Shown here: positions 15,796-19,244 of the stretch, piece after piece
Layout of the letters: each line of letters opens with the position of its first letter
How positions within the stretch are numbered: position 1 is the stretch's first letter
From: an uncultured Fibrobacter sp.
GTDB taxonomy: Bacteria; Fibrobacterota; Fibrobacteria; Fibrobacterales; Fibrobacteraceae
Assembly: GCF_947305105.1 (NCBI RefSeq)
Contig: NZ_CAMZCS010000021.1
Location: forward strand, 1-56,492
Direction of reading: 5' to 3'
Length of the DNA stretch: 56,492 nucleotides
Translations under genes and position numbers: made by a program
Notes under the pieces: generated by a model
Database searches by the model: none
What the model was told of the DNA's origin: nothing
Seen by the model: only the letters and a program-made list of their open reading frames with translations

Positions 15796-15801
15796 AATAT
15801 A
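15796..15801 (-). promoter_or_regulatory. -10 element for the small ORF-hflX-pgpA unit
   Basis: On the minus strand TATATT is followed by 6 nt and ATG (15789). It sits directly after the T-run of the upstream terminator, so terminator and promoter are fused. Confidence 0.5.
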
Positions 15802-15830
15802 AAAAAACTGGCCAATTACTTGACCAGTTT
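15801..15830 (-). terminator. Terminator after the radical SAM gene
   Basis: On the minus strand AAACTGGTCAA pairs with TTGGCCAGTTT (one mismatch, 4-nt loop), followed by a T-run that merges into TATATT. It closes the peptide/radical SAM cassette. Confidence 0.82.
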
Positions 15831-15863
15831 AGTGTAATATTCCTGCAGAAAAGTTATGCTTGG

Positions 15864-17963
15864 CTAGATGATATTGGGTGGTGCTTGTTCAAGCGTTTTC
15901 CCTGCTAGGCAATCTAGCCCGATTTGTAGGCAAGACGTGTCATCTCCAGTTTTGTTCAAGAGGAATACGAGGTTCTTTTTCCACAGTTTATCTTCGCCGA
16001 TAGACGAAAGCTTGACCTGCTGTGAAAGCCCCTTTTCGTTGAGGGTAATGAGGAGAATGTTCAATGTTTCGATGTCTTTTTCGGTATCGCTTGAGTTTGA
16101 CAAGATGATTATATCTTTTTCGCCTAGTTCTAGACTTTCTAAATCTGAAAGGATTTTCTCCATAGAATCTGGAGAATGAACCAAAGAGATGTATAAAGGA
16201 ATATTGCATTCCTTGTCCTTACGGCATTCAGTGAATTTTTTGATTAGCGGGTTTATGCTTTTGCCGTCTGTTGTAAAATCAAGTTGGACCGCTTGGATAT
16301 TTGATTTTACGAGTAAATTGTATATGTCATCACTGGCAATAGTTTCATCATTGGTGATGATGTCGTAAGTGACATATCTCTCTTTTAAAAGTTCAAGAAT
16401 TTTAGAGAATTCGGCGCAATGACTTATCTTGTCGATTCCAATATGGAGTAAGCATGTGTCGTTGATGTTGTGGGTGTTGAGGAGTGCTCCTAATAGTTCA
16501 ACATCCATGACATCGTTGTTGTATGGTTCCAAAGAAATGAAAATGTTGCGTGTTTTTTTATTTTCGATTTCTGGGTCAATTATATATGGAATACTTGGAT
16601 CTTCGGCTATTTTTTCTATCAAGAATGGAATTATTTTTTTGTTGAATGAGCAGACTTCTGTTTCGTCTTCTTCCTTGATTCCAGAATAGTACTCTTCTGA
16701 ATAGCAGAGTCCTCCGCACAGCCCTTGCCATGTGCAATTTTTGCATCGTTTTAGTTTTTCTACGCAGCGGGATTCCGCCTTTTTTCTGACCGGACTATTG
16801 AGAATTTGGTCTTTTATATGTCCCTTGTCTAGGGCCCCCATCAAGAAATCCTTGTCGCCGGTAAAATTGTCGCAAGCGTAAAGATTTCCGTGAACGTCTA
16901 TTCCGAGTATTTTACGAGAGGCTCCACAAGGTGAGTTCATGCACATGAATTTCTTTTGATTTAAATAAATGCTTTGAACGAAATTACTCAAAACGCGTTC
17001 CGAAACCCATTCGTTCTTTGCGTGATTCTTATTGTGAGCCACAATTCGTTCAAAAATGATTTTGTAAGCCTCAAATATTGTGTCTCCATCCACATAATAA
17101 TTGGATTCGTCTTTTCCGCGGCCGTTTTTTTGGATGGGAGAGAATGATAAAGTATTGATCTTGTTTTCTATAAAAAAATCAAGAGTTTCGTTCATGTGTT
17201 TTGCATTCAGGCCATTCAGTACGGATATGGTTCCAAAGTGAACATCGTGCTTTCTAAGAATATTTATTCCTCGCATTACCTGTTCAAAAGAACCTTTACC
17301 ACCAAGGTAATGTCTTGATGCATCTTGAATGAACTGAGGGCCATCAATGCTTATGCCGACTTTTACATCGTATTTTTTGAAGAACTCTGCAATTTCGTCA
17401 TTAATCAATGTCCCGTTTGTTTGAATGGCTAGGTCTAATTTATCGCGATAAGGTTTTACATATTCCGCGACCTTTTTCATTAAATCAAAGTTTAATAATG
17501 GTTCTCCTCCATGAAATGCGTAATTAATCATTCGTTCGTCATTTTTGTGCATCTCCAAATATTCATCGGCAACTTGGAATGCAATTTTTTCAGACATCTT
17601 GCAAGTTTTTTTGCTTTCCGCATCTATGTAACAGTAAGAACAATTTAAGTTACACTGCTCTGTTAGTTTTACGACAGCCAAAGTAGGTAATGTGTTTGAA
17701 TCTCTATCCTTACGTACGTTATTTATTGTTTCTTGTATGCGGAATTCGTTTTCTTGTAGTGCTTTAAGAATATCTAAAATTTCTGATTGTGATAGATTTG
17801 GGAACTTGTTTATGACACTCTCGATGTCGGATGTCTTTTCCATTTCTTCGACGACATCTTTGTAAGATTTGTCAAGGAGGACCCATGCTCCAGTTGGAAC
17901 GTGAATCGCCAATAGTCGGTTCTCAAAAGGAATCCATTCTCTTTTTACTTGATTTAAAAGCAT
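15864..17963 (-). CDS. Radical SAM/SPASM peptide maturase
   Basis: 699 aa. Residues 1-80 resemble a PqqD-like RiPP recognition element. The radical SAM core starts near 90 with CNLNCSYCY (Cys104, 108, 111) and has HGGEP at 151-155. A complete SPASM set follows: Cys346 and Cys364, Cys407-x2-Cys410-x5-Cys416-x3-Cys420, and Cys438, giving two auxiliary 4Fe-4S clusters. Residues about 465-699 form an extra domain I cannot name. Such enzymes install thioether or C-C crosslinks in ribosomal peptides; the likely substrate is the repeat peptide encoded directly upstream. AT-rich compared with its neighbours, so probably acquired. Confidence 0.85.
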   Translation of the reverse strand: MLLNQVKREWIPFENRLLAIHVPTGAWVLLDKSYKDVVEEMEKTSDIESVINKFPNLSQSEILDILKALQENEFRIQETINNVRKDRDSNTLPTLAVVKLTEQCNLNCSYCYIDAESKKTCKMSEKIAFQVADEYLEMHKNDERMINYAFHGGEPLLNFDLMKKVAEYVKPYRDKLDLAIQTNGTLINDEIAEFFKKYDVKVGISIDGPQFIQDASRHYLGGKGSFEQVMRGINILRKHDVHFGTISVLNGLNAKHMNETLDFFIENKINTLSFSPIQKNGRGKDESNYYVDGDTIFEAYKIIFERIVAHNKNHAKNEWVSERVLSNFVQSIYLNQKKFMCMNSPCGASRKILGIDVHGNLYACDNFTGDKDFLMGALDKGHIKDQILNSPVRKKAESRCVEKLKRCKNCTWQGLCGGLCYSEEYYSGIKEEDETEVCSFNKKIIPFLIEKIAEDPSIPYIIDPEIENKKTRNIFISLEPYNNDVMDVELLGALLNTHNINDTCLLHIGIDKISHCAEFSKILELLKERYVTYDIITNDETIASDDIYNLLVKSNIQAVQLDFTTDGKSINPLIKKFTECRKDKECNIPLYISLVHSPDSMEKILSDLESLELGEKDIIILSNSSDTEKDIETLNILLITLNEKGLSQQVKLSSIGEDKLWKKNLVFLLNKTGDDTSCLQIGLDCLAGKTLEQAPPNII

Positions 17964-17989
17964 TTTTGTTCTCGTTATAATAAAATAAT

Positions 17990-18016
17990 AACCAGTCTTG
18001 TATTACAAGACTGGCT
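17990..18016 (-). terminator. Hairpin between precursor and radical SAM genes (likely leaky terminator)
   Basis: CCAGTCTTGT and ACAAGACTGG form a perfect 10-bp stem with a 3-nt loop. On the minus strand it is followed by TTATTATTTTATT. A partial terminator here would give much precursor mRNA and less enzyme mRNA, a common arrangement in peptide natural-product operons. Confidence 0.65.
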
Positions 18017-18026
18017 GTGAAAAATA

Positions 18027-18485
18027 CTAGAATTCTAATAGTGTCTTAAGATCATTATCTTTAACGAAACATTCGAATTCAGCTGCTTTTGCTGCGGGAA
18101 TTGTCAATGTCTTATTTTCTATTTTCGCACCATAATTTTGAAGTTGAAGAATATGGTCCTTGTTTAGACTTGCTCCTTCTGCAAGATGAACGACGATGTT
18201 TTCACGTTCTGCGACGAAAATGTCTGTGTGAACGTCTTTATGAGGAATGAGATCTTTGTACGGAGGATTGAAGTCTTTGTACGGAGGTGTGCCACAGCGC
18301 CTATACGGAGGTGGGGCAAAGTCCTTATACGGAGGTGGAATGACAACTTTGTGAGGGTTAAGGTCTATATGAACTTTGCCAGGTATTCTTGCTTGAGCGC
18401 TTACGCTTGCTGCTGGCTTCACGACTTTTTCAACTTTCTTGGCGGCTGATAGATCCGTTCTGTTGGCTTTTTTTATGTCTGCCAT
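18027..18485 (-). CDS. Repeat-bearing peptide, putative RiPP precursor
   Basis: 152 aa. The N-terminal 36 residues are Lys/Ala-rich. Residues 43-85 carry six spaced units of Pro, then Tyr or His, then Lys or Arg: PHKV (44), PYKD (52), PYRR (60), PYKD (68), PYKD (75) and PHKD (81). The Tyr units are preceded by one or two further Pro. Residues 85-152 form a folded-looking segment (VAERENIVVHLAEGAS) that may serve as a follower or recognition part. There is no signal peptide. AGGAG precedes the ATG. Together with the downstream SPASM enzyme it is read as a precursor whose aromatic-x-x motifs are crosslinked; the chemistry is inferred. Confidence 0.72.
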   Translation of the reverse strand: MADIKKANRTDLSAAKKVEKVVKPAASVSAQARIPGKVHIDLNPHKVVIPPPYKDFAPPPYRRCGTPPYKDFNPPYKDLIPHKDVHTDIFVAERENIVVHLAEGASLNKDHILQLQNYGAKIENKTLTIPAAKAAEFECFVKDNDLKTLLEF

Positions 18486-18505
18486 TTTGTTTTCTCCTGT
18501 TGGGG

Positions 18506-18542
18506 TTATAAACTTATTCCAAAATAAATAAGTTGTTTATAA
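18506..18542 (-). promoter_or_regulatory. Inverted repeat in precursor mRNA leader
   Basis: TTATAAACTTATT and AATAAGTTGTTTATAA pair except for a 3-nt bulge, about 20-57 nt before the precursor ATG. It could be a leader hairpin or an operator. A candidate promoter lies upstream: minus-strand TAAATT at 18552-18557 and TTGAAA at 18577-18582 (19-nt spacer). Confidence 0.4.
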
Positions 18543-18643
18543 CATTAATTTAATTTATGGGAAAGAGAGTGTTTTTTTTCAAAAAAAAAGAGGATTTTTG
18601 TGTAAATTTTTCGGAACAAAGTTTGTTGTGATTGATGGATGTA

Positions 18644-18677
18644 TGTTCAACGAATGAACAATGTATTACAATGTAAT
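18644..18677. promoter_or_regulatory. Two adjacent small palindromes
   Basis: TGTTCA-5 nt-TGAACA (18644-18660) and ATTACA-A-TGTAAT (18665-18677) lie next to each other, 160-190 bp before the precursor start. They may be regulator sites. The rest of 18543-18712 is AT-rich and shows no gene. Confidence 0.3.
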
Positions 18678-18712
18678 CCGTTGTGCCAAGACAATTTGGA
18701 CGAATTTATCGA

Positions 18713-18752: not shown

Positions 18753-19244
18753 TTAGTTGCCGTTTTCATTGACAATTATGCTTGGAAAATTCCTGTTGCC
18801 GTTTATATAAAGAATTTTGGCAGATGTCATCTCGTCTGGGATTTCGAAATCAACGACCGAAATGCAACTACAGGTGGGGACTCCATCGCTATCGTAACTA
18901 GTGTTTACGAATAGAGTATCGTCAATTCTTTTTGTATGTAGTGAAAAATCCAATCCACAGTAGGTGGGAATCTTTAATTCAACAAATATAGAGCCGTTTC
19001 CCGTTTTTCGGAAATAAACTGTATCTACTTTTATAGCATCATCAAAAATGTTACTTCTTGTTTTTTGTGGAATGGTTCGGCGTAGTGCTTTATCCGATAA
19101 ACTATCTGTGAGACTTTCTTGCTTATCTTCCACTAGACAAGCTGCTTTCAATTCATAGGGAATTCCTGGCTTTTCATCGTCAGAGCACGAACATACTGTT
19201 ACCCATGTTGCCATTAGCAAAATCCATGCGATGTTTTTTACCAT
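18753..19244 (-). CDS. Small lipoprotein of unknown function
   Basis: 163 aa. Signal peptide with Cys18 and Cys20 (WVTVCSCSDD), typical of short Fibrobacter lipoproteins. The mature part is mostly beta-rich with further Cys residues (AACLV, PTYCGLD, PTCSCIS). AAGGAG lies 9 nt before the ATG. It is encoded just upstream of the RiPP-like cassette but 268 nt away with its own hairpin, so it is probably a separate unit. I do not recognise a domain. Confidence 0.7.
   Translation of the reverse strand: MVKNIAWILLMATWVTVCSCSDDEKPGIPYELKAACLVEDKQESLTDSLSDKALRRTIPQKTRSNIFDDAIKVDTVYFRKTGNGSIFVELKIPTYCGLDFSLHTKRIDDTLFVNTSYDSDGVPTCSCISVVDFEIPDEMTSAKILYINGNRNFPSIIVNENGN

Follow-up and report, generated by a model that had tools for sequence, protein, structure and literature searches.

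What does a two-gene unit that couples a short peptide rich in aromatic motifs with a radical SAM enzyme produce in a gut-dwelling Fibrobacter? The window, a stretch of 56,492 nucleotides from an uncultured Fibrobacter sp. (contig NZ_CAMZCS010000021.1), carries such a transcription unit on the minus strand, encoding a 152-aa precursor and a 699-aa radical SAM/SPASM enzyme. A preliminary description had read it as a RiPP cassette of the triceptide kind, in which an aromatic residue is joined to the second residue after it. The two genes very probably form a pair of precursor and maturase. We put a probability of roughly 70% on this self-contained RiPP-type pair forming i/i+2 cyclophanes on its aromatic motifs. 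Co-occurrence of the two genes, covariation of the repeats and a bias at position +2 support the triceptide reading, and it is the cross-link itself that we infer.

The precursor gene (18027..18485, minus strand) encodes a leader (residues ~1-36), a core (~37-90) and a C-terminal domain (~95-152), and the enzyme gene (15864..17963, minus strand) follows it. The AT-rich region upstream (18486..18700, minus strand) is presumed to hold the promoter and 5' UTR, and contains one weak sigma-70-like element at 18689-18660, as a consensus match only. The intergenic stretch holds a hairpin of 12 pairs whose tail is rich in T (17990..18016, minus strand), and an intrinsic-terminator-like hairpin (15805..15830, minus strand), with its sequence kept in loci L008 and L009, ends the unit. 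Other lineages have an intergenic hairpin at the same place with other sequence and intact stems (fold z-scores of -3.5 to -5.6 at four loci), so the unit has conserved this hairpin. It probably sets the precursor-to-enzyme ratio. The AT-rich composition noticed earlier was confirmed, as the GC content of the cassette was 0.35-0.41 versus 0.52-0.60 in the flanking genes. A lipoprotein-like ORF is present upstream of the cassette (18753-19244, minus strand) and also at L009; it was rejected as a cassette member because the listing of the L008 site does not include it.

The precursor contained all six described units of the form P-[YH]-[KR]-x (PHKV 44, PYKD 52, PYRR 60, PYKD 68, PYKD 75 and PHKD 81, numbered by start residue); no more than three such units occurred in any of 50,000 shuffled versions of the peptide. 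The six units are bracketed by two similar sites that the preliminary description had overlooked, HID (39-41) and HTD (86-88). Direct reading of the core (residues 39-88; 18222..18371, minus strand) therefore gives eight aromatic-x-residue sites: HID 39, HKV 45, YKD 53, YRR 61, YKD 69, YKD 76, HKD 82 and HTD 86. The mid-protein position of the repeats and the long C-terminal segment after them had been listed as unusual points. Both are real, and the segment (residues 95-152; 18030..18203, minus strand) is a conserved domain which marks the family and is kept in all full-length family precursors. AlphaFold2 predicted a beta-alpha-beta-beta-alpha arrangement for this domain (pLDDT ~70-80) and disorder for leader and core. 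In fold comparison the best match of the domain was to the YebC family (Z 6.3, rmsd 2.2, 57 residues aligned), with other middling matches to ACT-like and propeptide-like folds; we accepted none of these identities, since the matches reflect a common alpha/beta arrangement.

Precursors of the family share a common leader, a variable core and a conserved C-terminal domain of ~50 aa. The leader, which is weakly constrained, reads roughly LN[VA]KxSxxxxGxR in distant members and is weak in the window precursor, while the domain of distant members carries the motif L-x-K ... LGC-x-[IL] ... AVEKILK. The dN and dS values of leader and core were noisy and do not support a claim of positive selection. 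The 192-aa precursor of genome G027 consists, by eye, of the leader-core-domain unit twice. Genome G151 has a fourth family precursor gene (L042:13593-13856) with a frameshift in its C-terminal domain.

The enzyme can be divided into a putative RRE-like part (~1-90), a radical SAM domain (~91-335), a SPASM domain (~336-445) and a C-terminal extension (446-699). Its cysteines agree with the motifs of radical SAM/SPASM peptide maturases (CxxxCxxC, CX9-15GX4C...CX2CX5CX3C...C), as previously stated: C104, C108 and C111 form the CxxxCxxC, and the SPASM set is C346-x12-G-x4-C364 ... C407-x2-C410-x5-C416-x3-C420 ... C438. All of them, and an extra C341, are invariant in six homologues. Radical_SAM and SPASM of Pfam each matched 6/6 proteins, with the SPASM of the window protein just below the gathering score. 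The N-terminus had been called PqqD-like. Pfam gave no PqqD match. The enzyme profile aligns with the SCIFF maturase CteB (PDB 5wgg) from residue 15; since this includes the N-terminal domain of CteB, an RRE-like domain may well be present at this end of the protein. The alignable region continues through the radical SAM domain to SPASM. CteB differs in its substrates, which are Cys-rich SCIFF peptides, while Fibrobacter cores can be free of Cys. Residues 446-699 had no significant Pfam match and look specific to this Fibrobacter family, and profile comparison with the enzyme's own radical SAM domain gave no sign of a second such domain in them. The AlphaFold2 model of the enzyme, made from three sequences, was poor (mean pLDDT 44).

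No family model of Pfam or NCBIfam matched above its cut-off except the general radical SAM and iron-sulfur domains. The leading NCBIfam matches were peptide- or protein-modifying SPASM enzymes, all well under their curated cut-offs, and included sulfatase maturase, DynA, PapB, CbpB, HxsB, GrrM/OscB, AmcB and YhhB; PapB, CcpM, the SCIFF maturases and DarE were also found among the profile matches. The named 3-CyFE families in NCBIfam all fell below their curated cut-offs (bits/cut-off: GrrM/OscB 151/310, AmcB 134.5/425, YhhB 131/445, XyeB 94/450, FxsB 93/370). The enzyme profile also aligns with anaerobic sulfatase maturases, which were the top match; this identity was rejected, as the score was 185 bits versus a cut-off of 349.

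Profiles of the enzyme extension and of the peptide domain matched the same seven of 168 Fibrobacterota genomes (G000, G004, G027, G031, G121, G148 and G151), so that the pair of the window occurs in six more Fibrobacter genomes, always with the two genes adjacent. Homologous pairs, which the preliminary description had asked for, therefore exist in seven genomes. Peptide homologues without the enzyme would have spoken against its proposal. Among the 168 genomes no strong peptide-domain match lacked an enzyme, and the enzyme adjoins the peptide in 7/7. The orthologous pair of G031 (contig JAEERM010000069) has an enzyme 91% and a peptide 62-64% identical to those of the window and lies at the same chromosomal site, beside hflX. 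A Fibrobacter from yak reticulum (L009, JAGCPF010000009) has its pair at this site too, with 73-74% identity in the enzyme and 26-28% in the peptide. More distant pairs, with enzyme identity of 34-41%, are found in G004 and in G027, where one locus has two enzymes.

Three unrelated settings are occupied: beside hflX (G000, G031, G121), at another site (G004), and beside a PapB-like gene (G027, G148, G151). The family is small, with seven genomes and some five core types that are independent of one another. Divergence is much quicker in the cores than in the enzyme: window and L008 are 91% identical in the enzyme with dN/dS of ~0.11, and 62-64% in the peptide with gain and loss of units. The pair has the features by which RiPP pairs are recognized, namely a short precursor that co-occurs with the enzyme gene next to it and has a variable core between conserved flanks. 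A scan of genome contigs extended to two close relatives, and a search of viral contigs and plasmids gave none.

The PapB-like gene is a second radical SAM gene next to the cassette (L010:11061-12173, L041:8013-9125 and L042:14069-15220 in G027, G148 and G151). In the latter two genomes the next gene encodes a small protein rich in Lys and Ala that carries two LGG[MI]xAEK[AS]LF units, and the two genes are probably another RiPP pair. G148 also encodes, at L041:1115-4424, two proteins with a HEAWHVAQQ motif, DUF4157-like by eye, whose downstream parts differ.

The motifs of the variable cores are PYKD/PHKD in the window, YKD/HRR/YVD in G031, RHLD/YHFD in L009, YLQ/YIK/YKE/YKK in G004, WYD/FSD/WDK and HCK/WCK/FSD/HIK in G027, YCN/WLD/FTN in G148 and WDE/WIK/WMD in G151, and the cores have a suitable partner at i+2 of an aromatic residue as the triceptide motif demands. 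We counted D, E, K, R, N and Q at each offset from W, F, Y and H against composition-preserving shuffles, with cores bounded by eye and with shuffles that ignore the shared ancestry of lineages. A polar or charged residue was at +2 in 48/70 cases (69%) versus 38% in shuffles, and 0/4,000 shuffles reached this count. The other offsets of the full core set (-3 to +1, +3 and +4) were at or below expectation. With one core per lineage +2 gave 34/45, and offset -2 was also mildly raised (P 0.05). Leaving out the window and G031 gave 29/39, and collapsing repeated tripeptides gave 32/53 (0/5,000 shuffles). The aromatic sites which do not fit are HKV in the window and WEL and WKL elsewhere. The polar bias confined to +2 is, as read from these sequences, the i/i+2 signature of triceptide cyclophanes.

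This bias also bears on a rival explanation, by which the repeats are no more than a Pro-rich disordered linker and the substrate of the enzyme is the C-terminal domain or a different protein, for example a sulfatase-like one. The sulfatase maturase as top match, the predicted disorder of leader and core and the weak constraint on the leader are in agreement with it. The score of that match is far under its cut-off, however, and aromatic residues make up 16% of cores versus 6% of C-terminal domains, where +2 was polar in just 5/21 cases with no such bias. Between orthologues, moreover, H and Y are swapped at position 1 while Asp or Arg is mostly kept at position 3, which bears out the covariation that had been proposed as a check; the swaps of window and G031 (HID/YLD, PHKV/PYKD, PYRR/PHRR, PHKD/PYVD) are partly our own reading of an ambiguous alignment. 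We consider a plain linker very unlikely.

Thioether chemistry on Cys, of the ranthipeptide or sactipeptide type, is suggested by PapB, CcpM and SCIFF maturases among the profile matches and by Cys in some cores of G027, G148 and G151. The window core has a single Cys (C64), and the cores of G004 and G031 have none with the same enzyme family, so we rejected this explanation as extremely improbable.

The main rival reading keeps a true precursor-maturase pair but assigns it other radical chemistry on the aromatic motifs: C-O or C-N bonds of the kind made by darobactin and dynobactin enzymes, cross-links that join one unit to another, or oxidized Tyr and His. The dynobactin maturase DynA was the second-best profile match (184 bits, far below its cut-off of 450) with DarE also listed, and at the level of sequence a C-C bond looks no different from a C-O or C-N bond. 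Against this, the bias at +2 fits a partner within the unit, Pro-rich spacers of varying length separate the units from one another, and simple oxidation would make a partner residue needless. DynA and DarE products do contain radical C-C cross-links; dynobactin and darobactin have one fused bicycle, versus repeated units in the Fibrobacter precursors. We consider such other chemistry unlikely.

In triceptides the enzyme forms a bond between a carbon of the aromatic residue i and the beta-carbon of residue i+2; the described links are Tyr-Asp for YxdB, Tyr-Arg and His-Arg for YhhB, His-Ala for HaaB/ScaB and Trp-Asn/Asp for OscB (PMC11002830). Tyr-Asp, Tyr-Arg and His-Arg are thus known chemistry, and the Fibrobacter cores offer these pairs. 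Because the cores of the family present the published kind of residue pair, i/i+2 cyclophane formation is the best explanation. In such a scheme the RRE-like N-terminal domain would, from what is known of related families, bind the leader of the precursor. The radical SAM cluster would produce a 5'-deoxyadenosyl radical, which would remove a beta-hydrogen at position 3 (Asp, Arg, Lys or similar), and the carbon at this position would attack the ring of Tyr, His, Trp or Phe at position 1, with the SPASM clusters taking up the electron. Each event would cost 2 Da and leave one three-residue cyclophane, up to eight per window precursor, and the hairpin after the precursor gene would probably provide more precursor than enzyme. 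The C-terminal domain could be a follower recognized by the extension of the enzyme, or it could fold into a carrier and remain part of the product. We regard it as no better than a tentative possibility that domain and extension together serve follower-type recognition and that the product is protein-sized, a Pro-rich stalk with at most eight staples and the domain still attached.

The known triceptide/3-CyFE systems (YxdB, YhhB, HaaB/ScaB, XncB, OscB and MscB; PMC11002830) likewise have a SPASM enzyme adjoining a precursor with aromatic-x-polar motifs. The Fibrobacter enzyme differs from them in falling under the cut-off of each named family seen and in having ~250 aa extra, and the core of the precursor is internal with a folded C-terminal domain after it. 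The His-Xaa-Ser maturase HxsB (171-185 bits, below the cut-off of 370) also acts on a substrate with repeated short aromatic-containing motifs, but the motif residues differ, and no second radical SAM partner is beside the window pair. Our literature search found no paper on this Fibrobacter peptide-enzyme family and no record which combines Fibrobacter with radical SAM, RiPP and SPASM. What is new here is that a multi-site core inside the protein, a conserved folded C-terminal domain and a private enzyme extension of ~250 aa come together; the proposed chemistry, should it be borne out, is already known in kind. If the proposal is true, a Fibrobacter family joins the cyclophane-forming enzymes, with Tyr/His-rich or Trp/Phe/His-rich cores handled by related enzymes and at most eight sites per chain. 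It would be a good system for studying the choice of aromatic residues by such enzymes and their repeated action on one chain.

At none of the three chromosomal settings does the pair have an exporter or protease beside it, which weighs against the proposal and agrees with what had been said of the window, and the genome of the window lacks a Peptidase_C39 domain. A dedicated protease or exporter is optional for RiPP pairs, and two-gene RiPP pathways have been reported (PMC9062424). The neighbouring oligopeptide ABC permease gene was rejected as an exporter, as it is a genus-wide gene present in 57/61 Fibrobacter genomes. The folded C-terminal domain together with the lack of exporter and protease raises the question of the purpose of the product in rumen bacteria.

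The chromosomal site of the window pair looks variable, as if the cassette had been gained and lost there. The permease of G008 is 100% identical to that of the window, and in this genome the flanks are 68 bp apart versus 3.6 kb in the window; the same site is likewise empty in G138. G018 (L128:300-920) strongly resembles L009 in its upstream region and encodes a 74-aa peptide with no enzyme; the promoter of the cassette looks to be retained, and this single case speaks for the proposed pair. The peptide, which contains seven consecutive Asp and lacks the aromatic core and the C-terminal domain, is possibly a decayed precursor. G012 has a different, unrelated ORF at the same site (L131:2560-3330), by eye resembling a GIY-YIG nuclease, so insertions may be frequent at this position next to the oligopeptide permease gene.
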